The notes under the pieces are model-generated. The model was not told the origin of the DNA. It did not search any database and saw only the letters and a list, made by a program, of their open reading frames with translations. From positions 153,417 to 217,416 of the forward strand of contig NZ_KK069991.1 of NCBI RefSeq assembly GCF_000576425.1: a DNA stretch of 64,000 nt, in the 5' to 3' direction. Shown in pieces: positions 43,866 to 63,505 of this stretch. This DNA comes from Brachybacterium phenoliresistens. Its GTDB lineage: Bacteria > Actinomycetota > Actinomycetes > Actinomycetales > Dermabacteraceae. How positions within the stretch are numbered: the stretch's first letter is position 1; each line of letters opens with the position of its first letter. The position numbers were made by a program, and so were the translations under genes.

Positions 43866-43979
43866 TCCTCAAGTCAACTCGAGCGGCGGGGTCGAGGCAA
43901 CGTCTCCGCTCCGCTCGACGCTGATCTGCTCTGGGTGGAGTCGCCCTATTTGGAGCCCCGGCCGCGGCAGGCTCGGAGC

Positions 43980-44597
43980 ATGAACACCACCACGCAACCT
44001 GGAACCGCCCTCGCGGACCGCACCGGACTGGGCCTGCTGCACCAGCGGGTCCTGATCCTGGACCGCGAGCTCGACATGGACAACGGCGCGCAGCTCAGCG
44101 CCGGGCTCCTCCTGCTCGCCGCCGAGGACCCCTCGGCGGACATCACCCTGCTCATCAACTCTCCCGGCGGGCTGGTCCCGGCGATGCTCGCCATCGGCGA
44201 CCTCATGGACCTGATCCCCTGCGACGTGCGCACCGTGTGCCTCGGCATGGCCTACAGCGCCGGGCAGTACCTGCTCACCCACGGCACCCCGGGCAAGCGG
44301 CTCATCCTCCCGCACGGCCGGGTGCTCATGCACCAGGGCTCCGCGGGCTTCGGGGGCAGCGCCGCCGACATCGAGATCCAGGCCGAGGACCTGCGCAAGA
44401 ACCGCGACCTGCTGATCCGCATCACCGCCGAGCGCACCGGCCAGGACGTCGAGCGCATCGCCGTGGACTCCGAGCGCGACCGCTTCTGGGACGCGCAGGA
44501 CGCGATCGCCTACGGCTTCTGCGATCGCACCGTCGACTCCCTGGCCGACGTCCTGCCGCTGGGTGCGGCCACCGGCCGGGCGGGAGGCCTGCGATGA
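43980..44597 (+). CDS. clpP: ClpP-type serine protease subunit, catalytic
   Basis: 205 residues. Peptidase of the Clp proteolytic chamber with a full triad: Ser93 in GMAYSAGQ, His118 in LMHQ and Asp163 in AVDSERDRF. The GGS-AADIEIQAEDL handle region is normal. It is one of an overlapping pair and not next to tig/clpX, so it is likely an additional set beyond the housekeeping ClpP1/P2, as with clpP3/clpP4 in Streptomyces. The overlap ATGA with the next gene implies coupled synthesis of both subunits. Confidence 0.92.
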   Translation: MNTTTQPGTALADRTGLGLLHQRVLILDRELDMDNGAQLSAGLLLLAAEDPSADITLLINSPGGLVPAMLAIGDLMDLIPCDVRTVCLGMAYSAGQYLLTHGTPGKRLILPHGRVLMHQGSAGFGGSAADIEIQAEDLRKNRDLLIRITAERTGQDVERIAVDSERDRFWDAQDAIAYGFCDRTVDSLADVLPLGAATGRAGGLR

Positions 44598-45193
44598 GCA
44601 GCTACACGATCCCCAGCGTCATCGAGCGCACCTCCACCGGGGCCGAGCGCACGGCCGACGTCTTCTCCCGCCTGCTCAGCGACCGCATCGTCTACCTCGG
44701 CACGCCGGTGGACGACGGCGTCGCCAACACGATCATCGCCCAGGTCCTCCACCTCGAGAACCAGGCCCCCGAGTCGCCCATCCAGCTGTACATCAACTCC
44801 GCGGGCGGGGACGTGCAGTCCGTCCTGGCGATCCACGACGCCCTCGCCTACGTGCGCTGTCCGGTGGCGGTGACGGTGATCGGCCAGGTGGTGGCGGCGC
44901 CCGTGCTGCTGCTGGCCGCCGGCACCCCCGGCATGCGCGCCGTGCTCCCGCATGCGCGGGTCGTGCTGCGGCCCCTCGAGGCGAGCGGGCGCGGGGCGAT
45001 CCCGGACCTGATCCTCGCCGCGGAGGAGGTCGAGCGGATCCGTCGCGAGATCGAGTCCCTGCTGGCCGAGCACTCCGGGCGGGACCTCGCCGCGGTGCGC
45101 CACGACCTCGAGCGGGAGCGGGTCCTCGATGCCCGCGCCGCGATCGCCTACGGCCTCGCCGACACCGTCCTGGAGCGGCGCCGGGCCGGGTGA
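44594..45193 (+). CDS. ClpP paralogue lacking catalytic Ser and His (ClpR-like)
   Basis: 199 residues, clearly ClpP-fold (IVYLGTPVDD, LYINSAGGDVQS, then the handle). The nucleophile position reads GQVVA (Ala101) and the histidine position reads VLRP (Arg126). Only the Asp (Asp171) is kept, so it should be inactive as a protease. It probably joins the upstream ClpP in a mixed ring and contributes structure or chaperone contacts, as ClpR proteins do in cyanobacteria and plastids. The frame is intact and similar in length to active ClpP, arguing against a pseudogene. Confidence 0.88.
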   Translation: MSSYTIPSVIERTSTGAERTADVFSRLLSDRIVYLGTPVDDGVANTIIAQVLHLENQAPESPIQLYINSAGGDVQSVLAIHDALAYVRCPVAVTVIGQVVAAPVLLLAAGTPGMRAVLPHARVVLRPLEASGRGAIPDLILAAEEVERIRREIESLLAEHSGRDLAAVRHDLERERVLDARAAIAYGLADTVLERRRAG

Positions 45194-50412: not shown

Positions 50413-50620
50413 GTGCCGAGCGGGCCGAGCGGGCCGAGCCGGGCCGAGCCGAGTCGAACCGGGCCGGGATGGGCCGGGCCGGGATGGGCCGGGCCGAGTC
50501 GAGCCGGGCCAGGCCAGGCGGGGCCAGACCAGACCAGACCAGACCAGACCAGACCAAGACGGCCCGGTCCGGGCCGCGCCGAAGCGGGGCCGGACCGGGC
50601 CGGGAGGGTGGGGGCGGGAT
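50413..50620. repeat. Low-complexity G/C-rich repeats with (AGACC)6
   Basis: Irregular copies of GGGCCGAGC and GGGCCGGGAT, then six tandem AGACC pentamers (50526-50555) before the GntP stop. No gene is seen in the whole 50152-50619 gap. Confidence 0.8.
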
Positions 50621-52020
50621 CAGATCTGGGAGGCCACCACGTAGACGATGCTCGAGACCGCGAAGGCGACCAGGGCGATCGCGGTGCCGACGACGGACCA
50701 GGTCTTCAGCGTGGTCGTGGTGTCGAAGCCGCAGAACCGGCCGATCAGCCAGAAGCCGGAGTCGTTGACGTGGGAGAAGCCGATGGATCCGGCGCCGATG
50801 GCGACGATGATCGCGGCGATGGCGACGGGGTTGAGGTCCATGGCCATCACCGCCGGGGCCATGATGGAGCCGGCCGTGGTGGCGGCGACCGTCGCCGAGC
50901 CCTGCGCGATGCGGAAGGCGGCGGCGACGAGGAACGCCGCGACGATCACGGGCAGGCCCACCGCATCCAGGCCGCCGGCGACGGTGTCGCCGATGCCCGT
51001 CTCGGTCAGCACGCGGCCGAAGGCGCCGCCGGCACCGGTGATGAGGATGATCGAGCAGACGGGGGCGAGGGCGTCGTCCACCAGGGAGGACAGGGCCGCG
51101 CCGGCCTTCTCGCCCTTGCGGGGCAGGATGTACAGCAGCAGCATCGCCGCCAGGGCGGAGATGAGCAGCGCCATCGAGGTGGTGCCCACCAGGCGGGAGA
51201 GCTGGTAGATCCCGTTGTCGGCATCGACGGTGCCGCCGGCCTCGAGGGTGGACATGACGGTGTTGAAGCAGATCAGCACCAGCGGCAGCAGCAGGGTCAC
51301 GATGACGGTGCCGAAGGCGGGGCGCTGCGCGGCGGGGACATCGGCCGGCTCGCCCAGCAGGGTGGGGACCGGCATGTCCGGGTAGCGCTTGGCGATGATC
51401 AGCGACAGGCGGTAGCCGGCGAGGTAGAACGTCGGGATCGCGATGAGGATTGCGACGATGGTGACCACGCCGATGTCGGCGCCCATGACCGTGGCCGCGG
51501 CGGTCGGGCCGGGGTGGGGCGGGGTGAGGGCGTGCATGGTGAGGAACGCGCCGATCGAGGGCAGCACGTACAGCATGAAGGAGCCGCGCAGGCGCCGGGC
51601 GACCGTGTAGATGATCGGCAGCATGACGATGAAGCCGGCGTCCAGGAAGATCGGGAACGCGTAGAACATCGAGGCGACGCCGAGCGCCAGCGGCGCCTTC
51701 TTCTCGCCGAAGGTGTCCAGCATCTTGTCGGCGAGCACCTGGGCGCCGCCGGACACCTCGACGAGCCGTCCGAGGACGGCGCCGAATCCGACGAGCAGCG
51801 CCACCGTGCCGACGGTCTTGCTGAATCCTTCGATGATGACGTTCACGGTGTCGCCGACGCCGATCCCGGCCGCGAGGGCCGTGGCGACCGAGACGATGGT
51901 GAGGGCGAAGAAGGCATGCATCTTCGCCTTGATGATGAGCAGCAGCAGTGCTGCGATCGCCACGACGGCGATGGTGATCAGCAGCAGCGTCGGGCGCTCT
52001 GCGATGACGATGGGGTCCAT
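50620..52020 (-). CDS. GntP family sugar-acid permease (first copy)
   Basis: 466 residues, 12-14 helices. GntP proteins import gluconate-like sugar acids with protons. Family features: FSKTVGTVALLVGFGAVLGRLVEVSGGAQ, FLTMHALTPPHPGPTAAA and HVNDSGFWLIGRF. It is the last gene of a minus-strand operon with a 3-hydroxyacyl-CoA-dehydrogenase-like enzyme, an SDR and a TIM-barrel protein. The substrate should be an aldonate or other hydroxy acid used by them. A hairpin precedes it (52063-52104). Confidence 0.93.
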   Translation of the reverse strand: MDPIVIAERPTLLLITIAVVAIAALLLLIIKAKMHAFFALTIVSVATALAAGIGVGDTVNVIIEGFSKTVGTVALLVGFGAVLGRLVEVSGGAQVLADKMLDTFGEKKAPLALGVASMFYAFPIFLDAGFIVMLPIIYTVARRLRGSFMLYVLPSIGAFLTMHALTPPHPGPTAAATVMGADIGVVTIVAILIAIPTFYLAGYRLSLIIAKRYPDMPVPTLLGEPADVPAAQRPAFGTVIVTLLLPLVLICFNTVMSTLEAGGTVDADNGIYQLSRLVGTTSMALLISALAAMLLLYILPRKGEKAGAALSSLVDDALAPVCSIILITGAGGAFGRVLTETGIGDTVAGGLDAVGLPVIVAAFLVAAAFRIAQGSATVAATTAGSIMAPAVMAMDLNPVAIAAIIVAIGAGSIGFSHVNDSGFWLIGRFCGFDTTTTLKTWSVVGTAIALVAFAVSSIVYVVASQI

Positions 52021-52174: not shown

Positions 52175-53158
52175 TCAGATGGCGGTGCCGCGCGGGGCGG
52201 GGCCCAGCTCGCGCAGCAGCTCGCGCATCTTCGCGTAGGCCTTGTTGCGGTAGGCGATGAGCTCGGCCTTGGTCTCGTCGTCGTAGTCCTCGACGAGGCC
52301 CTTGCCGTTCTTGAGGCCCTTGCGGTCCGCGGCGGCCGCGTCCTGCAGCAGCTTCGGGGTCGACAGGCGCTCGCCGTAGGCGTCCTCGAAGGTCTTGAAG
52401 GAGTTGGCGTACACGTCCAGGCCGGCCTGGTCGGCGATCGCGAAGGGACCGAAGAAGCCCAGGCGGAAGCCGAAGGTGGTGCGGACGATGGTGTCGACGT
52501 CCTCGACGGTCGCCACGCCCTCCTCGACGATCGAGGTGGCCTCCTTCAGCAGCACGTACTGGAGGCGGTTGAGCACCATGCCGGGGGTGTCGGCGACCTG
52601 GGCGCCCTCGCAGTCGGCGCGCTGCAGCAGGTCCTTGATCGCGTCGATGGCGACCTGGTCGGTGGCCTCGCCCGCGACCAGCTCGACGCCGGGGATGAAC
52701 GGCATCGGGTTGGAGAAGTGCACGGTGAGGAAGCGCTCGGGGTTGGTCACGGCCGGGGCCAGCACCTTCACCGGGATGGTGGAGGTGTTGGTGCCGATGA
52801 TCGCCTCGGGGCGGGCGGCGGCGGAGACGCGGCCGAGGACCTCCTGCTTGACCTCGGGCAGCTCGAAGACGGCCTCCTCGATGAAGTCCGCCTCGGCGAC
52901 GGCCTCCTCGATGGTCTTGCCGGCGGAGAGGTTCGCGGCGATCTTCTCCGCGTGGCCGGCGGGGATGAGGCCCTGCTCCTCGGAGGCGCGGGCCTCGGAG
53001 ACGATGCGCTCGAGCGCGGCATCGGCCGCCTCGACGCTGACATCGGCCAGCTGGACGGGAAGGCCGGCGGCGGCCAGGACCTGGGCGATGCCGCCGCCCA
53101 TGTAGCCGGCGCCGACGACGGTGACGGTCTGGATGCTGGAGACGGGGGAGATGCTCAT
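52175..53158 (-). CDS. 3-hydroxyacyl-CoA dehydrogenase family enzyme, probably a sugar-acid 3-dehydrogenase
   Basis: 327 residues. NAD site VVGAGYMGGGIAQVL (~15-29), NTSTIPV, the catalytic His in TVHFSNPMPF, and NRLQYVLLKEATSIVEEG. The fold is that of HBDH and of L-gulonate 3-dehydrogenase (lambda-crystallin), which oxidise a beta-hydroxy acid to a beta-keto acid. Next to a GntP permease, a free hydroxy sugar acid is a better guess than an acyl-CoA. AAAGGA precedes ATG. Operon with SDR and TIM barrel. Confidence 0.85.
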   Translation of the reverse strand: MSISPVSSIQTVTVVGAGYMGGGIAQVLAAAGLPVQLADVSVEAADAALERIVSEARASEEQGLIPAGHAEKIAANLSAGKTIEEAVAEADFIEEAVFELPEVKQEVLGRVSAAARPEAIIGTNTSTIPVKVLAPAVTNPERFLTVHFSNPMPFIPGVELVAGEATDQVAIDAIKDLLQRADCEGAQVADTPGMVLNRLQYVLLKEATSIVEEGVATVEDVDTIVRTTFGFRLGFFGPFAIADQAGLDVYANSFKTFEDAYGERLSTPKLLQDAAAADRKGLKNGKGLVEDYDDETKAELIAYRNKAYAKMRELLRELGPAPRGTAI

Positions 53159-53267: not shown

Positions 53268-54050
53268 TCAGACCATGTGCTTGCCGCCGTCGACGAAGAC
53301 GCTGTCCCCGCTGACGAAGCTGGCATCCTCGCTGACCAGGAAGCTGATGAGGCCGGCAACCTCCTGCGGCTGGCCCACGCGGCGCAGCGGGATGTCGGCG
53401 CTCATGCCGGCCTTGCGCTCGTCGGTGAGCTTTCCGCCCATGATGTCGGTGTCGATGGGGCCGGGGACGATCGAGTTCACGGTGATCCCGTGCTGGCCCA
53501 GCTCGCGGGCGCCGCCGCGGGTCAGGCCCAGCACGGCGGCCTTCGCGGCCGCGTAGCCGATCTTGGAGAAGGTGCCGCCGCCGTCGTAGGCGGTGATCGA
53601 CGAGGTGTTCACGATCCGCCCGCCGAGGCCGTGCTCGATCATGCGCTGCGCGGCGGCCTGCATCATGAACAGGGTGCCCTTGGCGTTGACCGCCATGACG
53701 CGGTCGAAGGTGGCCTCGTCCAGCTCGAATAGGGAGGCGGGGCTCGCGATGCCGGCCAGGTTGACCTCGGCGATCACGGGCGGGAGCGTCTCGTCGATGC
53801 GCGCGAAGGCGGCCTCGACGCTGGCGGGGTCGGCGATGTCGACGCCGATTCCGACGACGGTGCGGCCGCTCTCGGCGGCCAGCTCGGCGGCGAAGGCCTC
53901 GACGGCGTCCCCGTCGATGTCCAGGACGGCGAGGTCCCAGCCGCCGGCGGCGAGCTTGCGGGCCACGTGGCGGCCGATGCCGCGCGGGGCGCCGGCCCCG
54001 GTGACGACGGCGGTGCGCTTCTCGGGGAATCCAGAGGGCTGAGAGGTCAT
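53268..54050 (-). CDS. Classical SDR family oxidoreductase
   Basis: 260 residues. TGAGAPRGIGR nucleotide motif (~17-27), NLAGIAS, active-site Ser in NTSSITAYDG, YAAAK, and PGPIDTD. It is an NAD(P)-dependent polyol or sugar dehydrogenase by family; here it could oxidise a precursor sugar or reduce a keto intermediate. AAGGAG lies upstream. Same operon as its neighbours. Confidence 0.92.
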   Translation of the reverse strand: MTSQPSGFPEKRTAVVTGAGAPRGIGRHVARKLAAGGWDLAVLDIDGDAVEAFAAELAAESGRTVVGIGVDIADPASVEAAFARIDETLPPVIAEVNLAGIASPASLFELDEATFDRVMAVNAKGTLFMMQAAAQRMIEHGLGGRIVNTSSITAYDGGGTFSKIGYAAAKAAVLGLTRGGARELGQHGITVNSIVPGPIDTDIMGGKLTDERKAGMSADIPLRRVGQPQEVAGLISFLVSEDASFVSGDSVFVDGGKHMV

Positions 54051-54176: not shown

Positions 54177-55097
54177 TCAGAGCTCGGCGGAGGCCAGCAC
54201 CTGGCGGATGTACTCGCGGTTCTCGGCGATGACGCCCAGGGAGTCGGAGCCGTAGTGCTCGCAGCAGAACGGCCCGGAGAAGCCCAGCTCGAGGGCGCGC
54301 AGGATCACCTGGCGGTAGTTGATGTACCCGTACTTCAGCGGCATCGGGTCGGAGCTGTAGGCGCCGGTCGCGGTGTCGACGTCGCGCGTGTAGTTCTTGA
54401 TGTGCCAGAAGTTGGCGTAGGGGAGGACCTTCTCGTACATCGCGGTGGGGTGCTCCATCGGCCGATGCAGGCGCACCAGGTTGCCCAGGTCCGGGTTCAG
54501 GCCCACGGCGTCGTGGTCGACGTCGGTGATGAAGGCGACGGCGTCGTCGGGGGTGCCGATGTACGTGTCCTCGTACATCTCCAGGCTCAGCTGGATGCCC
54601 TGGGCCCGGGCGTGGTCGCCGAGCTCGCGCACCCGCTCGATGGCCAGGTCGCGCAGCGCCGGGTCGTCGACGTGGCCGTCCTCGAGCCAGAACCACACGG
54701 CGGCGGCCTGCTTCTCGGTGATGGCCTGCATGAAGCCGGTGTTGACGACGAGGGCGCCGAAGCTCGGGGCGAGGTCGATCAGGCGGTGCGCGTCGGCGAG
54801 GTTGCGCTCGCCGTGCTCGCGGTCGACCACGGAGTTGCGGGTCATGGAGATCGAGGGGATCGAGATGCCCTCGCCGTCCAGCACGGAGCGGAACTCCTCG
54901 ACGCGGGCGTCGGAGAGGGAGGCCAGGGGCACCCAGGCGTCGGTGGGGTCGATCTGGTCGATCCCGAGCGCCTTGACCTGGCGCAGCTGGCTGGCCCAGA
55001 CCGTGGCGGGCGCGTCCTTGATGTGGCCGCCGTCGGGGGCGGTCGCACCGAAGGACAGCATGTTGGCCGCGATCGGCCAGGTCTCAGCTGTGAACAT
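54177..55097 (-). CDS. Xylose-isomerase-like TIM-barrel protein (epimerase or decarboxylase)
   Basis: 306 residues of the AP-endonuclease-2/sugar isomerase fold. Putative metal ligands follow the family order: Glu in SLEMYED, Asp in GLNPDLGN, His in FWHIKNYT and Glu in CCEHYG. The family contains isomerases, epimerases and beta-keto-acid decarboxylases. As first gene of an operon with a beta-hydroxy-acid-type dehydrogenase it may isomerise or decarboxylate the oxidised acid. AAGGAG 9 bases before ATG. The -10 is overlapped by TCCTATAGGA. Confidence 0.8.
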   Translation of the reverse strand: MFTAETWPIAANMLSFGATAPDGGHIKDAPATVWASQLRQVKALGIDQIDPTDAWVPLASLSDARVEEFRSVLDGEGISIPSISMTRNSVVDREHGERNLADAHRLIDLAPSFGALVVNTGFMQAITEKQAAAVWFWLEDGHVDDPALRDLAIERVRELGDHARAQGIQLSLEMYEDTYIGTPDDAVAFITDVDHDAVGLNPDLGNLVRLHRPMEHPTAMYEKVLPYANFWHIKNYTRDVDTATGAYSSDPMPLKYGYINYRQVILRALELGFSGPFCCEHYGSDSLGVIAENREYIRQVLASAEL

Positions 55098-55123: not shown

Positions 55124-55133
55124 TCCTATAGGA
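55124..55133. promoter_or_regulatory. Operator TCCTATAGGA at the minus-strand operon promoter
   Basis: Perfect 10-bp palindrome overlapping the -10 GATCCT (55130-55135), which is 17 bp from a perfect minus-strand -35 TTGACA (55153-55158). A second CCTATAGG lies at the facing promoter. Confidence 0.65.
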
Positions 55134-55595
55134 TCAATCCTCGCTGTGGCGCTGTCAACCCTGTGGCCGCTGCCCGGAGGGCGGCCGGCGCGCGGAACCG
55201 TCGGCCCCGCGCGGGATCCCCGGGGCATCCGCGCCGATCAGCGCGGGATCCGTGCCGCCCGGTGGTCCGACCTATCCGCCCTGCGCGCCGTGGCGAGGCT
55301 CACGGGGGTTCGAAGGGGCGAGCGCGGCGGGGCGGCCGCGGCGCAGGCGTCCCGTGCGGGCCCCGCGCGCGGCTCCGTGCCCGCGACGGCGGAGCATCTG
55401 CCCTGCGTGCTACTCTCTCCCGTCCCGCCGATCCGAGATGGTGCCCCGGCGCCGATGCGGCCCGGGCTCGCGGCGGCGGCGTGAGCGAGGTCTCCTCCGC
55501 GGCGCTGCGGGGTCCCTGAGCTCGGGAGCGGGCTCCCATCCTCCGCGCGGGTCAGGCATGCTGAGAGACGAGACCCTTCCGCGACACCCCTGTTG

Positions 55596-55605
55596 CCTAT
55601 AGGAT
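55596..55605. promoter_or_regulatory. Operator CCTATAGG at the kinase promoter
   Basis: CCTATAGGAT includes the probable -10 TAGGAT (55600-55605) of the plus-strand operon. It matches the 55124 site. Confidence 0.6.
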
Positions 55606-55696: not shown

Positions 55697-57421
55697 ATGA
55701 CGTATCTCTTCAACTCCCCGTCCGACTTCGCGGCCGATGCCGTCGCCGGCCTCGTGGCGGCGCATCCCCAGCACGTGGCCTCGGTCCACGGCGGCGTGGT
55801 CCGCTCGACCCAGACCCCGCAGGGACAGGTCGCCCTCGTGATCGGCGGCGGCTCCGGGCACTACCCGGCCTTCGCCGGCTGGGTCGGCCCGGGCATGGGC
55901 CACGGCGCCCCCTGCGGCAACGTGTTCGCCTCCCCCTCCTCCTCGCAGGTCTACTCCGTGGCCCGCAACGCCGAGAACGGCGGCGGCGTGATCCTCGGCT
56001 TCGGCAACTACGCCGGCGACGTCCTCCACTTCGGCGTCGCCGCGGAGAAGCTGCGCGCCGAGGGCGTGGACGTGCGCATCATCCGCGTCAGCGACGACAT
56101 CGTCTCCAACACCCCCGAGAACCACCGCGACCGCCGCGGCATCGCCGGCGACCTGCCCGTGTTCAAGATCGCCGGCGCCGCCATCGAGGCGGGGGCGGAC
56201 ATCGACGAGGCCGAGCGGATCGCCTGGAAGGCCAACGACGCCACCCGCTCCTTCGGCGTCGCCTTCGAGGGATGCACCCTGCCCGGCGCCGCCGAGCCGC
56301 TGTTCCACGTCGAGAAGGGCCAGATGGGCGTCGGCCTGGGCATCCACGGCGAGCCCGGCGTGCGCGACGAGCCCCTGGGCACCGCCTCCGAGATCGCGGA
56401 CCTCCTGGTCGACGGCATCCTCGCCGAGCAGCCCGAGCGCGTCGAGGGCGGCTACCAGGGCCGCGCCGCCGTGATCCTCAACGGCCTGGGCACCGTGAAG
56501 TACGAGGAGCTGTTCGTCGTCTACGCCCGCGTGGCCGAGCGCCTCGCCGAGGCCGGCATCACCCCGGTGCGCCCCGAGGTCGGCGAGTTCATCACCAGCC
56601 TGGACATGGCCGGGGCCTCCCTCACCCTCGTCTTCCTCGACGAGGAGCTCGAGCAGCACTGGCTGGCCCCCGCCGACACCCCCGCCTTCCACCGCGGCGC
56701 GACGCCCGAGGTCGAGCGTCCCGCCCGCGAGTCCTTCTGGACCGCGGACGCCGTCGAGATCCCGGCCGCCACCGAGGAGTCCCGCGCGTACGCCGCGAAG
56801 ATCAGCGGCGTCCTGGACCTGTTCGAGCAGGTCTGCGCCCGCGAGGAGGTGGAGCTGGGCCGCCTGGACGCCATCGCCGGCGACGGCGACCACGGCCAGG
56901 GCATGGCCTACGGCTCCCGCGGCGCGGCGGCCGCGGCCCGCGAGGCCCTCGCCGCCGGGGCGGGCGCGCGCACCGTGCTGGTCCACGCGGGCGACGCCTG
57001 GGCCGAGTCCGCCGGCGGCACCTCCGGCGCGCTCTGGGGTGCGGCGCTCACCGCCGCCGGGAGCGTCCACAGCGACGACGCCGCCGGCTCCCCGGCGCAG
57101 ACCCTGCAGTCCCTGCGGTCCGGCATCGACGCCATCCAGCGCCTGGGCGGCGCGAAGGTCGGCCAGAAGACCATGATCGACGCGGCCGTCCCCTTCCTGG
57201 AGGCCCTGGGCAGCGAGGACCCGGCCGATGCCGCCGATACCGCCCGCCGCATCTCCGAGGCCGCCGCCGCCGCGCGCACCGCGGCCGATGCCACCGCGGA
57301 CATCACCGCGGAGAAGGGCCGCTCGCGCGTGCTCGGCGAGAAGAGCCTCGGCACCCCGGACCCGGGCGCGCTGTCCTTCTCGATCCTCATGGCCGAGCTG
57401 GGCGCCCACCTGGCGAAGTGA
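55697..57421 (+). CDS. lerK: DhaK/DhaL fusion kinase, probable L-erythrulose kinase
   Basis: 574 residues. ATP-dependent single-chain kinase of the dihydroxyacetone kinase family. The DhaK part has GGGSGHYPAF, GNYAGDVLHF and the substrate-binding His217 in GLGIHGEP. The DhaL part has AIAGDGDHGQGM and GGTSGALWG for Mg-ATP. Next to RpiB-type and TpiA-type isomerases it fits LerK of the erythrulose routes described for Mycobacterium smegmatis and apionate-degrading bacteria (known), giving L-erythrulose 1-phosphate. A plain glycerone kinase is the alternative. GGAGGA precedes ATG 55697. Confidence 0.82.
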   Translation: MTYLFNSPSDFAADAVAGLVAAHPQHVASVHGGVVRSTQTPQGQVALVIGGGSGHYPAFAGWVGPGMGHGAPCGNVFASPSSSQVYSVARNAENGGGVILGFGNYAGDVLHFGVAAEKLRAEGVDVRIIRVSDDIVSNTPENHRDRRGIAGDLPVFKIAGAAIEAGADIDEAERIAWKANDATRSFGVAFEGCTLPGAAEPLFHVEKGQMGVGLGIHGEPGVRDEPLGTASEIADLLVDGILAEQPERVEGGYQGRAAVILNGLGTVKYEELFVVYARVAERLAEAGITPVRPEVGEFITSLDMAGASLTLVFLDEELEQHWLAPADTPAFHRGATPEVERPARESFWTADAVEIPAATEESRAYAAKISGVLDLFEQVCAREEVELGRLDAIAGDGDHGQGMAYGSRGAAAAAREALAAGAGARTVLVHAGDAWAESAGGTSGALWGAALTAAGSVHSDDAAGSPAQTLQSLRSGIDAIQRLGGAKVGQKTMIDAAVPFLEALGSEDPADAADTARRISEAAAAARTAADATADITAEKGRSRVLGEKSLGTPDPGALSFSILMAELGAHLAK

Positions 57422-57456
57422 CCCCCGCACCACCCCCGCAACCCAAGGAGAGCATC

Positions 57457-57915
57457 ATGACGTGGAAGATCGTCGTCGGAGGAGACAACGCAGGCTACGG
57501 CTACAAGGAGGAGCTCAAGGCCCTCCTGGAGGCCGATGATCGCGTCGAGTCCGTGACCGACGTCGGCGTCACCGGCCGTGACGACGCCGAGCTGTACCCC
57601 AACGTCGCCGTCGCCGCCGCCGAGAAGGTCGCCGCCGGCGAGGCCGACCGCGCCCTGCTGATCTGCGGCACCGGGCTCGGCGTCGCGATCGCGGCGAACA
57701 AGGTCAAGGGCGTGCGCGCCGTGACCGCGCACGACCTGTACTCCGTGCAGCGCTCCGTGCTCTCCAACAATGCGCAGGTGCTGTGCATGGGCGAGCGCGT
57801 GGTGGGCCTCGAGCTCGCCAAGGAGCTGGTGAAGGTCTGGCTGGACCTCGAGTTCGACCCGACCTCGGCCTCCGCCGAGAAGGTCGACGCGATCTGCGCG
57901 TACGAGGGCGAGTGA
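57457..57915 (+). CDS. derI: RpiB-type isomerase, probable D-erythrulose-4-phosphate isomerase
   Basis: 152 residues of the ribose-5-phosphate isomerase B fold. Active-site Cys70 in LLICGTGLGVAIAANK and His92 in TAHDLYSVQRSVLSNNAQV. The usual DHAG motif reads DNAG (residues 10-13), hinting at altered substrate. In the LerK-LerI-DerI trunk this step turns D-erythrulose 4-phosphate into D-erythrose 4-phosphate. AAGGAG precedes ATG, 35 bases after the kinase stop. Confidence 0.8.
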   Translation: MTWKIVVGGDNAGYGYKEELKALLEADDRVESVTDVGVTGRDDAELYPNVAVAAAEKVAAGEADRALLICGTGLGVAIAANKVKGVRAVTAHDLYSVQRSVLSNNAQVLCMGERVVGLELAKELVKVWLDLEFDPTSASAEKVDAICAYEGE

Positions 57916-57974
57916 CCTCACCTGCCTGACCCGTGCCCGGCGGCGGCCTCCCTGCGCCGCTGCCCGGGCGCGAT

Positions 57975-58037
57975 CCACGGGACCAATGCGGGGACATGGC
58001 GCATATTTCGGCCCATGTGCCCGTATTGGTCCCGTGG
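57975..58037. repeat. Long imperfect hairpin
   Basis: 25-bp arms (23 of 25 paired) starting CCACGGGACCAAT and ending ATTGGTCCCGTGG, 13-base loop. It lies between derI-like and tpi-like genes. It could be a terminator or an extragenic element. Confidence 0.75.
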
Positions 58038-58081
58038 GTCGGCGGCTCCCGGCTTGGTCCCGTGGGTCGGCGGCTCCCGGC
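58026..58081. repeat. 28-bp direct repeat, two copies
   Basis: Two adjacent identical units starting TTGGTCCCGTGGGTCGG (58026-58053 and 58054-58081). The first overlaps the right arm of the hairpin. Confidence 0.85.
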
Positions 58082-58143
58082 GGCGACCCCGTGTCGGCCG
58101 CCGCACCTCTCACATCTTCTCCCGCCTCCGAAAGGGCCCTGCC

Positions 58144-58905
58144 ATGACCGACCTGTGGATCGGCACCAGCTGGAAGATGAACAAGACCCTCGACGAGGCC
58201 CGCGCCTGGACGACGGGACTGGTCGACGCGCTCGGCGACTCCGCGCCCGCCGGGATCCAGCCCTTCGTCATCCCGTCCTTCACCGCGACCACGACCGTGC
58301 GCGCGCTGCTGGGCCAGGACTCGCCGGTGCTGCTGGGCGTGCAGAACGCGCACTGGGAGGACGCCGGGGCGTGGACCGGGGAGGTCTCCGTCCCGCAGGC
58401 GAAGGACGCCGGGGCCCAGCTCGTCGAGATCGGCCATTCCGAGCGCCGCGAGCACTTCGGCGAGACCGTGGAGACCACCCGTCTGAAGGTCGCCGCCGCC
58501 CTGCGCCACGGGCTCACCCCGCTGCTGTGCATCGGCGAGGACGCCCAGGTCAAGGCCGAGGGAGGTTCCAGCGCGTTCATCCTCGAGCAGGCCGCCGGAG
58601 CCCTGGACGGCCTCGACGCCGCGGAGCTGTCCCGGGTCGTCATCGCCTACGAGCCCATCTGGGCCATCGGCGAGAAGGGCCGCCCCGCCACCGTCGAGGA
58701 GCTGCGCGAGCCCTTCGCCGCCCTCGCCGAGGCCTACGGCGACCGCGTCGCCGGACTGCTCTACGGCGGCTCCGTCAACCTCGACAACGCGGCCGACCTG
58801 CTCGGCATCGAGCACGTGACCGGCCTGTTCGTCGGCCGCACGGCCTGGAAGCTCGAGGACTACCTCGAGCTGCTGCGCATCGCCGAGGCCCATCGGGCCG
58901 GCTGA
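58144..58905 (+). CDS. lerI: Triosephosphate-isomerase paralogue, probable L-erythrulose-1-phosphate isomerase
   Basis: 253 residues, full TIM fold with the catalytic set Lys11 (TSWKMNK), His98 (EIGHSERR) and Glu170 (AYEPIWAIG), then LYGGSVN and GLFVGRTAW. Glycolytic tpiA normally sits with gap-pgk; here it follows a DhaK-type kinase and RpiB, so it is more likely LerI, converting L-erythrulose 1-phosphate to D-erythrulose 4-phosphate. A second true tpiA elsewhere is expected. Weak ribosome site (AAAGGG). Confidence 0.8.
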   Translation: MTDLWIGTSWKMNKTLDEARAWTTGLVDALGDSAPAGIQPFVIPSFTATTTVRALLGQDSPVLLGVQNAHWEDAGAWTGEVSVPQAKDAGAQLVEIGHSERREHFGETVETTRLKVAAALRHGLTPLLCIGEDAQVKAEGGSSAFILEQAAGALDGLDAAELSRVVIAYEPIWAIGEKGRPATVEELREPFAALAEAYGDRVAGLLYGGSVNLDNAADLLGIEHVTGLFVGRTAWKLEDYLELLRIAEAHRAG

Positions 58906-58920
58906 CCCCGCCGGCCGTCA

Positions 58921-58985
58921 TTCGTCGGCCGCTACCCGCCAGTCATCGGCCGCTACCCGCCAGTCATCGGCCGCTAGCCGTCAGC
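58921..58985. repeat. Short tandem repeats after the tpi-like gene
   Basis: 21-bp unit GTCATCGGCCGCTACCCGCC(A), with one complete copy at 58942, a variant before it and a diverged copy at 58963. Lies between convergent genes. Confidence 0.75.
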
Positions 58986-59048
58986 TGCTAGCCGTCGGCA
59001 CAGGCTGCCGGCGTGGCCTGTGGTCGGCGCGGCCTGCCGTCGGCGGCC

Positions 59049-59855
59049 TCAGGCGCCGTCGACGGGCGTGCGGACCAGGCGCTCCGCGGCGGTGCGCATG
59101 TGCGACTCCATGGCGCTCGCGGCGGCCTGCGGATCCTGGGCGGCGATCGCCTCGCACACCGCCCGATGCTCCCGGATGGCGACGTCGATGTCCGCCGGGT
59201 CCTCCACGCCGCGCTCGAACCACACCCGCAGCAGCGAGCGCGACGTCGACAGCAGCGCGGCAAGGATGGGGTTCCCGGCCATCGCGGCGAGGTGCTGGTG
59301 GAAGGCCATGTCCGCCTCGATGTAGGCGGCGGCGTCCCCACGGGCGGCCTCCTGGGCGGCGACGAGCTCCTCCAGCCGCGCCACCTGGTCGGCCGCCGGC
59401 TCCCGTGCCGCCTCCTGGGCCGCCGAGCGCTCGAGCGCCCCGCGCACCACGGCGAGGTCCTCCGTAGCGTCCTGGTCCACCAGCAGGCTCCAGGAGAGCG
59501 TCTGCGGCAGCAGCTCCGAGGTGGAGGCGCGCAGGTAGGTGCCGGATCCGGCTCGGGTCTCGACCACGCCGAGCACCTCGAGCGCAGAGATCGCCTCCCG
59601 GATCGCCGAACGTCCCACGCCCATCGCCTCGGTCAGCCGACGCTCCGAGGGCAGCCGGTCGCCCGGCCGCATGGAATCGCCCAGCAGCACGTCCAGCAGG
59701 CGGCTCGCCACCGATCCGCTGGGGGAGCGGGAACCCTGCGCGTCGCGGCGCAGCAGATCCAGCGGGTCCACCGGCTCGGAGGGCGTGCGCGGATCGGAGG
59801 CCGGGGCCGGCGCAGCTGCGGAATCGGATCGGGACGGGCGGGAGGTCTCGGGCAC
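59049..59855 (-). CDS. FadR-type (FCD) GntR repressor
   Basis: 268 residues. Winged helix RLTEAMGVGRSAIREAISALEVLGVVETRAGSGTYL, then an FCD domain with metal ligands in EADMAFHQHL, IREHRAV and ESHMRTA. This subgroup senses sugar acids or organic acids. It probably controls the sugar-acid genes through CAACTGGT-TG-ACCAGTTG (60012-60029), whose TGGT..ACCA form is typical for FadR-type regulators. GTG 59855 is leaderless (TAGTCT six bases upstream). Confidence 0.9.
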   Translation of the reverse strand: MPETSRPSRSDSAAAPAPASDPRTPSEPVDPLDLLRRDAQGSRSPSGSVASRLLDVLLGDSMRPGDRLPSERRLTEAMGVGRSAIREAISALEVLGVVETRAGSGTYLRASTSELLPQTLSWSLLVDQDATEDLAVVRGALERSAAQEAAREPAADQVARLEELVAAQEAARGDAAAYIEADMAFHQHLAAMAGNPILAALLSTSRSLLRVWFERGVEDPADIDVAIREHRAVCEAIAAQDPQAAASAMESHMRTAAERLVRTPVDGA

Positions 59856-59861
59856 CCGACC

Positions 59862-59867
59862 AGACTA
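59862..59867 (-). promoter_or_regulatory. -10 box TAGTCT, leaderless GntR start
   Basis: Minus-strand TAGTCT, GGTCGG, then GTG 59855. Confidence 0.55.
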
Positions 59868-60011
59868 GTGCGCCCCGGCTCCGGCGTTCCGGCCGCACGG
59901 CGATGCCCGCCGCGGCGACCCCGCCCCTTGCATCGGCGTTCCCGCGCCCACCGTCCCGTTCTTCATCGTCCCGCGATCTCGCTGTGCGGCGAGCACCTGC
60001 GCGCGGACGGT

Positions 60012-60029
60012 CAACTGGTTGACCAGTTG
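60012..60029. promoter_or_regulatory. FCD-GntR operator
   Basis: Perfect 8-2-8 inverted repeat CAACTGGT-TG-ACCAGTTG located 13 bases before the -10 TAGCGT (60043-60048), i.e. over the -35, so repressor binding should block the plus-strand operon. Confidence 0.7.
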
Positions 60030-60042
60030 GGGGTGGCGAGGT

Positions 60043-60048
60043 TAGCGT
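60043..60048 (+). promoter_or_regulatory. -10 box TAGCGT of the second catabolic operon
   Basis: TAGCGT, 54 bases before ATG 60103, just after the FCD-type operator. Confidence 0.5.
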
Positions 60049-60102
60049 GAGGCCACGCGCCCGGCACGACCGGCCGGGGCGGACCACGACGAGGTGACGC
60101 GG

Positions 60103-60924
60103 ATGGACATCGGGATCGGCACGTACGCGCTGTTCTGGGAATGGCAGGACGCCAACCCGCGGCCGATGAGCATCGCCGGGATGCTCGACCGGGCGGCGGA
60201 GCTGGACTGCCAGGTCTTCCAGATCTGCGACGACCCGTGCGTGGACGGACTCTCCCGGGCGGAGCTCACGGCTCTGCGCGATCAGGCACGCGACCTGGGG
60301 CTGCGCCTCGAGCTCGGCACCCGCACCATCGGCCCCGACCATCTGCGCCGCTACCTCGACATCGCCGAGGCGCTGGGCGCCCCGGTGCTGCGCTCGATGA
60401 TCCAGCGCCCCGAGATCGCCGGCGGCCGCGATCAGGCCGTCGCCGCGCTGCGGGAGGTCCTTCCGCGGCTCGAGTCGCAGGGCGCGACCCTCGCCCTGGA
60501 GACCTACGAGCAGGTCCCCACCGCCGAGCTGATCGCCGTCGTCGAGGAGGTCGCCTCGCCCCACGTGGGGATCTGCCTGGACCCCGCCAACTGCGTCTCC
60601 GCCCTCGAGCATCCCCGCGACGTCGTCGAGCGGACCGCCGCGCACGTGGTCGACCTGCACGTGAAGGACTTCCGCTTCGACCGCGCCGAGGGCTGGGTGG
60701 GCTTCACCCTCTCCGGCGCACGGATGGGGGAGGGCCTGCTCGACCTCGACCACGAGCTCGACGCGGTCTATCGCGAGGGGCGCACGCCTGCCGCGATCGT
60801 CGAGCACTGGCTGCCCTGGCAGGGCGACCTCGAGACCACGCTGCGCATCGAGCGCGACTGGACCCGCGCCACCCTCGACGCCCTGCGCACCTCAGCGCAG
60901 GCCGCCCCCGCGCCCGCACCCTGA
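60103..60924 (+). CDS. TIM-barrel sugar isomerase-like protein, candidate 3-oxo-isoapionate decarboxylase
   Basis: 273 residues of the xylose-isomerase-like fold, starting MDIGIGTYALFWEW. Probable metal ligands: Glu in LALETYE, Asp in GICLDPANC, His in VDLHVKDF and Glu in IVEHWLP. In published D-apionate pathways a protein of this superfamily (OiaC) decarboxylates 3-oxo-isoapionate to L-erythrulose. Its position directly before an ApnO-like gene and near LerK makes it the best candidate here. The sequence alone cannot exclude an epimerase. GAGGTGA lies 8 bases before ATG 60103. Confidence 0.72.
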   Translation: MDIGIGTYALFWEWQDANPRPMSIAGMLDRAAELDCQVFQICDDPCVDGLSRAELTALRDQARDLGLRLELGTRTIGPDHLRRYLDIAEALGAPVLRSMIQRPEIAGGRDQAVAALREVLPRLESQGATLALETYEQVPTAELIAVVEEVASPHVGICLDPANCVSALEHPRDVVERTAAHVVDLHVKDFRFDRAEGWVGFTLSGARMGEGLLDLDHELDAVYREGRTPAAIVEHWLPWQGDLETTLRIERDWTRATLDALRTSAQAAPAPAP

Positions 60925-60981
60925 CCATCGGCCATCGGCCATCGGCCCATCGGCCCATCGGCCCATCGACCCATCGGCCCA
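60924..60981. repeat. Tandem CCATCGG/CCCATCGG repeats
   Basis: Seven to eight short units CCATCGGC with 7-8 bp period between the TIM-barrel gene and the ApnO-like gene. Confidence 0.85.
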
Positions 60982-61023
60982 GCCCGCACCGCACCCGCCT
61001 TCACCCCGAGCAAGGAGATCACC

Positions 61024-61935
61024 ATGACCACCGATCGCAGCAAGGACCTCAACCCCCTCAAGGGCAAGCAGGTCGACCTCGATGCGAGCCTCACCGTCGC
61101 CGTCGTCGGCGCCGCCGGGAAGATGGGCACGCGCGTGTCCAACAACCTGAACCTCACCGATGCGACCATCCATTACTGCGAGTCCTCCCCGGCGGGCCGC
61201 GAGCGCGTCGAGGCGCTGGGCCGCACCGTGAGCAGCATCGACGACGTCGCCGGCGAGGCCGACGTCGTCATCCTCGCCGTGCCCGACGTGGTCCTCGGGA
61301 CGGTCTCCGAGTCCGTCGTCCCGCAGATGAAGCCCGGGTCCGTGCTGCTGACGCTGGACCCCGCCGCCGCCTACGCGGGACTGCTCGCCACCCGCGAGGA
61401 CGTCTTCCAGGCGTGCGCCCACCCCGCCCACCCCTCCGTGTTCCTCGAGCGCACCACCCCCGAGGAGTGGGCCGACACCTTCGGCGGCATCGCCGCCCCG
61501 CAGGAGGTCGTCGCCGCCTTCGAGGGCGAGGACCAGGACGCGAAGGGTCGCCTCGAGCAGGTCATCCGGGCGATCTATGCCCCCGTCATCGACGTCCACT
61601 GGGTCACGGTGAAGCAGCTCGCCCAGCTCGAGCCGACCCTGGTGGAGACCACCGGATGCATGATCGGCCAGTTCCTCAAGGACTCGATGGACCACGCCAT
61701 CCATGAGAAGGGGATCCCCGAGGACGCCGTGAAGGCGATCTTCTACGGCCACATCTTCATCTCCCTGACCAACGCCCTGCGCGGCTCCAACCCGTTCTCC
61801 GACGCCTGCCTGCTGGCGATGGACTACGGGCGCGAGGCGATCATCAAGGACGACTGGAAGCGCATCTGGGACGACAGCGAGCTCGACTCCGTCATCGCCA
61901 CGATGCTGAAGCTCGACCGCGCCGAGGAGCGCTGA
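61024..61935 (+). CDS. apnO: D-apionate oxidoisomerase-like protein (6PGDH-related)
   Basis: 303 residues. N-terminal Rossmann domain with VAVVGAAGKMGTRVSNNL (19-36), then ADVVILAVPDVVLG and an all-helical C-terminal domain (TGCMIGQFLKDSMDHAI, FYGHIFISLTNALRG, NPFSDACLLAMDYGR) of the phosphogluconate-dehydrogenase C-terminal type. ApnO enzymes have this architecture and convert D-apionate to 3-oxo-isoapionate with NAD (known). Assignment rests on this and on the OiaC/LerK/LerI/DerI neighbours. AAGGAG precedes ATG. Confidence 0.75.
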   Translation: MTTDRSKDLNPLKGKQVDLDASLTVAVVGAAGKMGTRVSNNLNLTDATIHYCESSPAGRERVEALGRTVSSIDDVAGEADVVILAVPDVVLGTVSESVVPQMKPGSVLLTLDPAAAYAGLLATREDVFQACAHPAHPSVFLERTTPEEWADTFGGIAAPQEVVAAFEGEDQDAKGRLEQVIRAIYAPVIDVHWVTVKQLAQLEPTLVETTGCMIGQFLKDSMDHAIHEKGIPEDAVKAIFYGHIFISLTNALRGSNPFSDACLLAMDYGREAIIKDDWKRIWDDSELDSVIATMLKLDRAEER

Positions 61936-61999
61936 GCACCCCCACCCCCACCCCCGATCCCGGGCGGCGCAGCGCTGCGCCGCCCGGGGAGAGGCAGTC

Positions 62000-63505
62000 A
62001 TGAGCACCGCATATCTCATCGGCGTCGCCGTCCTGGCGATCGCCATCCTCCTGTTCACGGTCATGAAGCTGAGATGGCCGGCCTTCATCTCCCTCCTGTT
62101 CGTCTCCGTCCTCACCGCGGTCCTCGCGGGCATCCCGATCCAGGACGTGATCCCCACCGTCATCGAGGGCATGGGAGGCACGCTCGGCAATGTCGCCCTG
62201 CTGGTCGGCCTCGGCGCCATGCTCGGCGGCATCATCGAGAAGACCGGCGGCGCGGAGATCATCGCGCACCGCGCGGCGGAGGTCCTCGGCGAGAAGCGCC
62301 TGGGCCCGGCCCTGCTGATCGCCTCGGGCCTGGTCGCGATCCCGATCTTCTTCGACGTCGCCTTCATCATCCTGGTGCCGATCATCTTCAGCTTCGCGAA
62401 GGCCGCCGGGCATCGCTCGCCGATCGCCCTGGGCGCCCCGGTCGCGGTGCTCATGGTGTTCATCCACAACGCGGTGCCGCCGCACCCGGGGATCGTCGGC
62501 TCCACCACGCTGCTGGGGCCGGAGCAGCTGGGCCTGGTGACCGTGCTGGGCATCCTGCTCGCGATCCCGATGGGCTTCCTGGTCTTCTTCCTGTCCGGAC
62601 GCATCATGCGCAGCACCACCTTCTCGGTCTCGCCCGAGGTCGCGCAGAAGTACGCCGATGCGGGCGCGGCCCGGTTCGTGGCCGCCCGCGCGGGCGCGGT
62701 CACCGTCCCGGCGGGCTCCGGCGGCTCCCGCGACGGCGGGTCCGGGTCCGGGGCGGGCGGTGCTCAGGGAGCATCGGCCGATGCCGACGCGTCGTCCGGC
62801 GCCGACGCCGCCCCCGCGCGCCGCGTCACCGAGCCCTCGGCCGCGACGGTCATCGCGATGATCCTGCTGCCGATCCTGCTCATCGCCTGCGGCACCATCG
62901 GAAAGGTGCTCCTGCCCGAGGGCTCGCCCGCCCTGAACGTGCTCTCCTTCCTCGGCGCCCCCGGCTTCGCCCTGCTCGTGGCGGGTCTGCTGTCGATGTA
63001 CGTGCTCGGCTTCCGCCACGGCTGGGGTCGCCAGGACCTCGCCGACGTCATGGACGGCGCCCTCGGCCCGGCCGCCATCGTCGTGTTCGTGACCGGCGCG
63101 GGCGGCGTGTTCGCGAAGGTGCTGACCGTCTCCGGGATCGGGACGGCCGTCTCGGGCCTGCTGGTCGACGCCGGGGTGCCGGTGCTGCTGCTGGCGTTCC
63201 TGCTCGCGCTGATCTTCAAGGTGGCGCAGGGCTCGGGCACCGTGGCGACGCTGACGGCCGCCGGGCTGGTGCAGTCCACGGTCCTCGCGGGCGACTTCTC
63301 CGCGATCCAGGTCGCGCTGATCATCCTCGCGATCGGCATGGGATCGCTCGCGCTGTCGCACATCAACGACTCCGGCTTCTGGATCATGACCCGCTTCCTG
63401 GGGCTGTCGGTCGCGGGCGGCCTGAAGACGTGGACGCTGATGTGCACCGTGCTCGGCTTCACCGGGATGGCGATCATCTCCCTGGCCTGGCTGATCGTCT
63501 CGTAG
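62000..63505 (+). CDS. GntP family sugar-acid permease (second copy)
   Basis: 501 residues. Same family as the 50620 gene (GNVALLVGLGAMLGGIIEKTGGAEI, FIHNAVPPHPGIVGS, HINDSGFWIMTRFLG). It carries an extra ~55-residue Gly/Ser/Ala-rich cytoplasmic loop (~232-285) absent from the first copy. The protein is likely a proton symporter for the acid (perhaps D-apionate) used by the ApnO-like enzyme just upstream. GAGAGG precedes ATG. Confidence 0.92.
   Translation: MSTAYLIGVAVLAIAILLFTVMKLRWPAFISLLFVSVLTAVLAGIPIQDVIPTVIEGMGGTLGNVALLVGLGAMLGGIIEKTGGAEIIAHRAAEVLGEKRLGPALLIASGLVAIPIFFDVAFIILVPIIFSFAKAAGHRSPIALGAPVAVLMVFIHNAVPPHPGIVGSTTLLGPEQLGLVTVLGILLAIPMGFLVFFLSGRIMRSTTFSVSPEVAQKYADAGAARFVAARAGAVTVPAGSGGSRDGGSGSGAGGAQGASADADASSGADAAPARRVTEPSAATVIAMILLPILLIACGTIGKVLLPEGSPALNVLSFLGAPGFALLVAGLLSMYVLGFRHGWGRQDLADVMDGALGPAAIVVFVTGAGGVFAKVLTVSGIGTAVSGLLVDAGVPVLLLAFLLALIFKVAQGSGTVATLTAAGLVQSTVLAGDFSAIQVALIILAIGMGSLALSHINDSGFWIMTRFLGLSVAGGLKTWTLMCTVLGFTGMAIISLAWLIVS

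Follow-up and report, generated by a model that had tools for sequence, protein, structure and literature searches.

A putative four-carbon kinase/isomerase set apparently shared by two sugar-acid operons, one of them likely for D-apionate, in Brachybacterium phenoliresistens

In a window of 64,000 nucleotides from Brachybacterium phenoliresistens (the whole stretch analysed, positions 153,417 to 217,416 of contig NZ_KK069991.1), we studied a gene cluster proposed to degrade D-apionate, the acid derived from the plant sugar apiose. At its centre lies a trio, here called the hub (55697-58905), of a DhaK-DhaL fusion kinase (DhaKL), an RpiB-type isomerase and a TpiA-type paralogue of triose-phosphate isomerase (TPI). 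Feeder A (60103-63505) encodes the barrel protein TIM1, the putative D-apionate oxidoisomerase ApnO and the permease GntP1, and feeder B (55097-50620, minus strand) encodes a second barrel, TIM2, a short-chain dehydrogenase/reductase (SDR), a 3HCDH-family dehydrogenase and the permease GntP2. On balance we favour, with modest conviction, a model of two sugar-acid operons under separate control that feed one common four-carbon hub. A sequence-only reading of the window had seen one cluster for one pathway; instead, we found the trio in this family tied to TIM2, the SDR, 3HCDH and GntP2, through the presence and absence of the TpiA copy and the operator-like motif of the kinase, with ApnO as an optional partner. 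The evidence consists of the family-level identities of the genes, their linkages, their presence or absence across genomes, the distribution of a motif, the diverged active site of the TpiA copy and the lack of a RuBisCO-like route. The D-apionate branch is likely and, if right, would add one more case of a known pathway. The new point with the better support is the shared hub under separate regulation; both the sharing and the TIM2-3HCDH feeder look new.

In this model, GntP1 would import D-apionate, ApnO would oxidise it and shift its hydroxymethyl group to give 3-oxo-isoapionate, and TIM1 would decarboxylate this product to L-erythrulose. The LerK-type kinase would then phosphorylate L-erythrulose, a TpiA-type LerI would convert L-erythrulose-1-phosphate to D-erythrulose-4-phosphate, and an RpiB-type DerI would yield D-erythrose-4-phosphate for the pentose phosphate pathway. 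In feeder B, GntP2 would import another sugar acid, the 3HCDH-type enzyme would form a 3-oxo acid, and TIM2 would probably decarboxylate or isomerise towards a four-carbon ketose. A single-pathway annotation thus becomes a testable hub-and-spoke model, with two acid-uptake operons, different operator-like sites and one four-carbon kinase/isomerase set.

Linkage of the hub to TIM2

Presence and absence were scored in 47 genomes of the family, and TIM2 was followed in 297 genomes of the order, where it is present in 77. Among the family genomes, cluster-type TPI paralogues were found in 32 and TIM2 in 31, the two together in 31, the paralogue alone in 1, TIM2 alone in 0 and neither in 15. Second TPI matches of 100-221 bits and the partial one of G031 (52 bits) were counted as paralogues; those of G012, G020, G028 and G040 (41-61 bits) and a 22-bit fragment in G027 were not. 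ApnO occurs in 16 of the 47 genomes, all of them inside the set that has the TPI paralogue and TIM2.

Loci were compared in two sets. The first holds 42 actinobacterial ApnO loci, namely 40 of 45 matched places plus two Agrococcus loci, in stretches of 12-21 kb (G132, G211, G159, G172 and G319, the last being the sole weak match at 34%, were left out). For the second, 80 TIM2 places were listed, 8 of which lie in ApnO loci of the first set, and 35 of the other 72 were taken across ranks and genera. These 35 loci carry DhaKL in 26 cases, 3HCDH in 29 and TIM1 or ApnO in none, a result that holds for the loci, 18 of the 35 being from genomes with ApnO elsewhere. Where a genome had both an ApnO and a TIM2 locus (17 examined), DhaKL was found at TIM2 only in six (G158, G171, G210, G184, G197 and G301), at both in four (G069, G126, G305 and G082) and at neither in five (G075, G090, G144, G157 and G232).

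The window has exactly two copies of the motif CCTATAGGAT, one preceding TIM2 and one preceding the kinase, and a scan allowing up to one mismatch gave 3 matches at 2 sites against 0.42 expected. Among loci of the genus, the 350 bases upstream of TIM2 hold the palindrome core TCCTATAGGA in 19 of 19, and those upstream of DhaKL in 14 of 15, among them all 11 in which the kinase stands behind GntP1. The core was also found upstream of RpiB (2/14) and GntR (3/15), and never upstream of TIM1 (0/15), ApnO (0/15) or GntP1 (0/14). Outside the genus, where the scan printed the longest perfect palindromes only, palindromes of the TCCTATAGGA type precede TIM2 or DhaKL in 8 of 31 TIM2 loci and the variant TTCTATAGAA in 6; among 25 ApnO loci the core appeared in one, L059, about 340 bases before an ApnL homologue. 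We infer from this distribution that the motif acts as an operator and places the hub in the regulon of feeder B.

The ApnO operon has a different repeat, CAACTGGT-N2-ACCAGTTG, found at one site in the window with 0.01 expected. Partial counterparts stand before TIM1 in L040, L042 and L043, a similar palindrome precedes DhaKL in L059, and nothing was found in 13 of the 17 loci scanned. Hence, we go no further than calling this repeat operator-like. The classic FCD-GntR half-site pattern TNGTNNNACNA was rejected, as it is at chance in the window (2 matches, 2.61 expected). The window GntR regulator has NanR as its best model match, below the cut-off.

The hub kinase carries PF02733 and PF02734 in a single protein, which is the architecture of LerK, and is a candidate L-erythrulose kinase. 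A second Dak1 gene lies elsewhere in the genome (C4:37263-38195, an open frame of 394 aa; 439 vs 374 bits), and is the likelier true dihydroxyacetone kinase subunit. For the RpiB copy, the nearest solved chains are 3QD5 and 3SDW (177 bits), with 5IFZ at 108 bits; a passage of PMC6324003 links 5IFZ to D-erythrulose 4-phosphate isomerase. The copy is above the cut-off of TIGR02133, the model of the actinobacterial RpiB, so it may work like DerI though it falls outside the rhizobial NF051858 subgroup. A further RpiB gene is on contig C10.

The third hub gene had rightly been called a TpiA paralogue, as another TPI is encoded at C1:476700 (307 vs 215 bits), and its active site differs from that of the glycolytic enzyme. 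In the window copy, the Asn of the NWK motif is replaced by Ser and the AIGTG loop by AIGEKGRPA. Ser stands for this Asn in all 43 ungapped rows of TpiA copies (the window is counted twice, and 3 more rows are gapped there), and the AIGTG loop is kept in 0 of 46; the genome's own glycolytic TPI, the sole canonical one compared, keeps both the Asn and the loop. The copies retain the GHSERR/GHAERR and YEP motifs; hence, isomerase chemistry is plausible for them. They fall into two types, that of the window (at least 53% identical to the window copy) and another (32-42%). In such clusters, the labels 'dihydroxyacetone kinase', 'triose-phosphate isomerase' and 'ribose-5-phosphate isomerase B' may be wrong.

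ApnO, TIM1 and the D-apiose front end

The assignment of the protein encoded at 61024 to ApnO is supported by sequence, fold and context, and we consider it very probably correct. The protein has a PGDH_C domain (180.3 bits vs 25) in a Rossmann plus PGDH_C architecture. Its AlphaFold model (mean predicted local distance difference test score, pLDDT, 85.6) had the Cupriavidus necator N-1 protein 5T57 as its first match in a PDB fold search (E 9e-27, template modelling score 0.84/0.92, with 0.92 on the target, 36% identity); 3C24 and then ketol-acid reductoisomerases and BurG followed among the 50 rows listed. Hence, the fold neighbours fit a reaction of oxidation and group shift. 5T57 itself has reportedly been assayed as ApnO; its gene neighbours are OiaK (769 bits, cut-off 700) and a RuBisCO-like protein (446 bits with the OiaX model, cut-off 700). 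NCBIfam gave no family at a meaningful score for TIM1 or ApnO, and the 5T57 protein also matches no ApnO model; hence, the silence of NCBIfam on ApnO and OiaC is uninformative.

The nearest named ApnO matches are from Agrococcus (79-80%), and identity to ApnO proteins in OiaK, RuBisCO-like or Gfo/Idh/MocA contexts is 35-41%. An ApnO-like protein occurs in 251 plasmid records, of which 14, all among the best 40, were inspected. Every one of the 12 plasmid loci lacking DhaKL carries at least one apiose-pathway family, OiaK-like (8), RuBisCO-like (5) or Gfo/Idh/MocA (8), the last of which is ApsD-like; two of the 12 were themselves the source of the reference genes and match by construction, so 10 are independent. 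We therefore did not see the 61024 protein fall in a non-ApnO subgroup, the outcome that had been named as fatal to the assignment. No TIM1 or DhaKL was found at E 1e-10 in these 12 stretches (12.7 to 18.7 kb). The plasmids of Erwinia E602 and Pantoea At-9b carry an MFS transporter, DhaKL, TpiA, TIM1, ApnO and a divergent RpiB, and TIM2 is absent from this set.

In all 42 actinobacterial loci TIM1 shares a stretch with ApnO, and in 38 it lies within 200 bases of it, being farther away in L058, L062, L072 and L073. The same loci hold a GntR homologue (40), TpiA (27), DhaKL (24) and RpiB (23). Hence, given the constant pairing of TIM1 with ApnO, the seven-gene cluster is not due to chance. Residues E133, D160, H186 and E234 of TIM1, which in this fold family are metal ligands, are invariant in the 28 aligned rows of 44 available, and the TIM1 model has a pLDDT of 92.6. 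The window's own genome gave 0 matches to RuBisCO_large and 0 to OiaK, and just 1 of the 42 ApnO loci has a RuBisCO-like gene. Hence, as the genome is without a RuBisCO-like protein or OiaK, L-erythrulose is best explained as the product of a decarboxylase route. Linkage, chemistry and elimination thus point to TIM1 as the decarboxylase between ApnO and the kinase, the candidate role that had been proposed for it. In Rhizobium CC-CFT758, no ApnO-type gene is annotated near a TIM1-like protein (32%); hence, remote relatives of TIM1 may lie outside the apionate pathway. TIM1 and TIM2 share 25% identity over 170 columns.

On contig C20 of the same genome (L081, 8351-12087), an ApnL homologue and an SDR lie side by side, next to an MFS gene and near the contig end. 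Though separated from the ApnO locus, this pair is probably a D-apiose front end, which may supply D-apionate from D-apiose and so feed the apionate branch. ApnL homologues were found in 19 of the 42 ApnO loci, and 14 loci, all of them with ApnL, have one particular SDR that shares 58-77% identity with that of C20; in three close relatives ApnL is within about 2 kb of ApnO. The 47 family genomes divide into 11 with ApnO and ApnL, 5 with ApnO only, 3 with ApnL only and 28 with neither (Fisher 6e-5, in related genomes). Family ApnL matches are mostly distant (36-43%), with 4 besides the genome's own at 56-63%. The Gfo/Idh/MocA gene of the proteobacterial clusters had only weak matches in ApnO loci (best 30%), and the C20-type SDR is a candidate replacement for that dehydrogenase. 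At L076, a Gfo/Idh/MocA gene of another kind adjoins ApnO. ApnL (19/42) and GntP1 (15/42) never share an ApnO locus, and 12 of the 15 GntP loci come from the window's genus; hence, this exclusion is confounded by descent.

Feeder B and competing explanations

None of the 22 NCBIfam matches of the 3HCDH protein reached its cut-off, nor did any of the best 25 of 228 models for the window SDR, polyol dehydrogenases included; this SDR is 35% identical to that of contig C20 and is a different one. A polyol pathway was rejected, as no listed polyol dehydrogenase model was above its cut-off. The close Mycobacterium smegmatis relative of TIM2, PDB 5TNV, is a xylose isomerase-like barrel whose title gives no function and which was solved with magnesium; a full-text literature search by this entry code found no paper. 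Tentatively, feeder B (GntP2, 3HCDH, SDR and TIM2) could be an undescribed second sugar-acid route, perhaps from a C3-oxidised L-pentonate, to L-erythrulose, whose hub the apionate branch would have borrowed in this family. If true, 5TNV would be the decarboxylase of feeder B. The analysis thereby offers a candidate function for the 5TNV family, and also a candidate D-apiose dehydrogenase of the SDR type.

Other genes are also seen beside TIM2: the PF07005/PF17042 four-carbon-acid sugar kinase family in L133, L134 and L140, a 3-hydroxyisobutyrate-type dehydrogenase family in L133, L134, L140 and L149, and PdxA in L145. These neighbours hint at a place for feeder B among linear sugar-acid pathways. 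Five loci (L137, L138, L165, L166 and L167) have TIM2 and 3HCDH without the kinase/isomerase set in 20 kb, and one genus locus, L132, has TIM2 and TpiA with no DhaKL in its stretch. A Pfam search of 8 further genes from L040, L041 and L132 gave no substitute kinase.

A single dedicated D-apionate pathway, made up of the trio and the ApnO genes next to an unrelated minus-strand operon, would explain why DhaKL shares the stretch in 24 of 42 ApnO loci, why 11 loci of the genus (L043-L053) have the kinase behind GntP1 on the same strand, why the Erwinia and Pantoea plasmids carry the set without TIM2 and why G154 and G180 have it at ApnO only. We regard this as unlikely, because the TpiA paralogue is found in 16 family genomes without ApnO as well as in all 16 with it, coinciding with TIM2, and because the kinase bears the motif of TIM2 even behind GntP1. 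There is a similarly small chance that the ApnO-like enzyme has come to act on a different sugar acid, branched or linear, with the same chemistry and a substrate other than D-apionate. The identity of only 35-41% to ApnO proteins of OiaK, RuBisCO-like or Gfo/Idh/MocA contexts is in keeping with such drift, as is the finding of an ApnL homologue in 0 of the 15 stretches of GntP loci; it is opposed by the ApnL homologues of 19 of the 42 ApnO loci and by the one, with its matching SDR, in the window's own genome.

The trio might also serve ordinary dihydroxyacetone catabolism, the kinase taking dihydroxyacetone and the TpiA copy being a second triose-phosphate isomerase. The family names of kinase and TPI say as much, a four-carbon acid oxidised at C3 and then decarboxylated would yield dihydroxyacetone, and tetronate-type genes (PF07005/PF17042 kinase, PF14833 dehydrogenase and PdxA) stand beside some TIM2 loci. 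However, a further Dak1 gene (C4:37263) and a further TPI are encoded elsewhere in the genome, the TpiA copies have all lost the active-site Asn and the AIGTG loop, and the conserved RpiB would be left without a function, which makes this explanation rather improbable. Least probable is that TIM2 is the apionate decarboxylase and TIM1 does something else, as an epimerase or isomerase. TIM2 is less than 9 kb from ApnO in 15 of the 42 loci, G044, which belongs to another genus, has a 46% relative some 9.4 kb from ApnO and just outside the stretch, and the TIM2 relative 5TNV was solved with magnesium; yet all 15 loci belong to one genus, TIM1 accompanies ApnO in 42 of 42, and 35 of 35 other TIM2 loci examined are without ApnO and TIM1, most having a 3HCDH gene instead.

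Several observations weigh against a shared hub with the functions proposed here. The RpiB copy passes the ribose-5-phosphate isomerase cut-off and misses the DerI model NF051858, of the rhizobial type (153.4 bits vs 240), NCBIfam labels the TpiA copy triose-phosphate isomerase above its cut-off (367.7 vs 293), and the window TpiA copy is no closer to the other type of copy (32-41%) than to glycolytic TPI (35%). The motif, variant included, is found in only 14 of the 31 non-genus TIM2 loci, with neither form in 17. Among the 17 genomes with both loci, DhaKL is at ApnO only in two (G154 and G180), and outside the family the partner of the hub varies. The closest ApnO relatives (84-85%, L040-L042) have ApnO, TIM1, TpiA and TIM2 with no DhaKL within 20 kb, L041 and L042 are also without RpiB, and no kinase was found by Pfam among 5 other genes of these loci. 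All 50 of the nearest listed folds of TIM1 are epimerases, isomerases, a hydratase or a dehydratase, with no decarboxylase, and one locus, L068, the sole such of 42, has RuBisCO-like and OiaK-like genes alongside TIM1, TpiA and RpiB. For the front end, the C20 ApnL homologue scores 175 bits against the NF049900 cut-off of 750, 5 of the 16 family genomes with ApnO are without an ApnL homologue (E 1e-20), and another 3 family genomes contain ApnL but no ApnO. The genomes are related, so the Fisher values overstate independence. The substrates are in every case inferred, no tool naming one, as are the decarboxylase roles of TIM1 and TIM2 and the effectors of the regulators.

Relation to described pathways and gene inventory

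D-apionate degradation through ApnO, OiaC, LerK, LerI and DerI was reportedly described by Carter et al. in 2018. The window agrees with that route in enzyme families, chemistry and the end point D-erythrose-4-phosphate. It differs in that its kinase/isomerase set appears common to a second operon and bears that operon's motif, in its GntP permease, and in having the apiose front end on another contig, with an SDR. With the OiaK/OiaX (RuBisCO-like) route of Paracoccus and Cupriavidus plasmids it has in common an ApnO-type protein (37-40% identity) and a NanR-annotated regulator, present in 4 of the 12 plasmid loci and the best, below cut-off, model of the window GntR; unlike that route, no RuBisCO-like protein or OiaK was found in the window's genome. 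Part of PMC11747546 lists D-apiose genes of a Rhodobacteraceae strain for apionolactonase, apiose dehydrogenase, apionate oxidoisomerase, 3-oxoisoapionate kinase and decarboxylase. The excerpts of PMC11747546, PMC13001218 and PMC6302742 describe no actinobacterial apionate route. According to a section of PMC10733421, LerI, DerI and LerK are erythrulose-phosphate enzymes that work together in E. coli, and serve tetritol catabolism with EltD. The hub reactions would be the same in the window, with entry from acids instead. EltD, LerK, LerI and DerI of tetritol catabolism originate from Mycobacterium smegmatis.

All seven genes named in the sequence-only reading were found at, or very near, the positions it gave, and Pfam and NCBIfam agree with its labels, including that of a GntP acid permease, for which the TIGR00791 cut-off is passed. 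Its phrase 'in a row' covers three transcription units, the trio on the plus strand, GntR on the minus strand and TIM1-ApnO-GntP on the plus strand. The cluster also extends leftwards on the minus strand to 50620, with TIM2, the SDR, 3HCDH and a second GntP that the reading did not mention.

Table 1. Features of the cluster in the window
Feature	Coordinates	Strand	Evidence
GntP2 permease	50620..52020	-	TIGR00791 341.7 bits, above cut-off 292.75
3HCDH-family dehydrogenase, candidate 3-oxo-acid former	52175..53158	-	PF02737 and PF00725
SDR of divergent operon	53268..54050	-	PF13561 200.5 bits
TIM2, AP_endonuc_2 barrel, M. smegmatis 5TNV relative	54177..55097	-	574 bits, residues 1-304
Operator-like motif CCTATAGGAT before TIM2	55125..55134	n/a	Motif scan
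Same operator-like motif CCTATAGGAT before DhaKL kinase	55596..55605	n/a	Motif scan
DhaK/DhaL fusion kinase, candidate LerK	55697..57421	+	NF011049 724 bits, PF02733, PF02734
RpiB-type isomerase	57457..57915	+	TIGR02133 208.6 bits, above cut-off 168.2
TpiA-type paralogue	58144..58905	+	PF00121; active-site changes
FCD-GntR regulator beside ApnO operon	59049..59855	-	PF07729, PF00392
Operator-like inverted repeat CAACTGGT-TG-ACCAGTTG before TIM1	60012..60029	one site, matched on both strands	
TIM1, AP_endonuc_2 barrel, candidate 3-oxo-isoapionate decarboxylase (OiaC-type)	60103..60924	+	PF01261 77.6 bits
ApnO, very probably D-apionate oxidoisomerase	61024..61935	+	PF16896 180.3 bits, 5T57 fold
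GntP1 permease, candidate for D-apionate uptake	62000..63505	+	TIGR00791 300.2 bits, above cut-off 292.75

The minus-strand TIM2 operon begins 600 bases from the kinase, and GntP1 and GntP2 are 35% identical. For TIM1, an alternative GTG start 9 bases upstream of 60103 is possible. The gene to the right of 63505 is of the DUF222/HNH type; hence, the right edge of the cluster is correct. Away from the cluster, at 43935-45193, the window holds two adjoining reading frames that are ClpP-like, as judged by eye from their translation.

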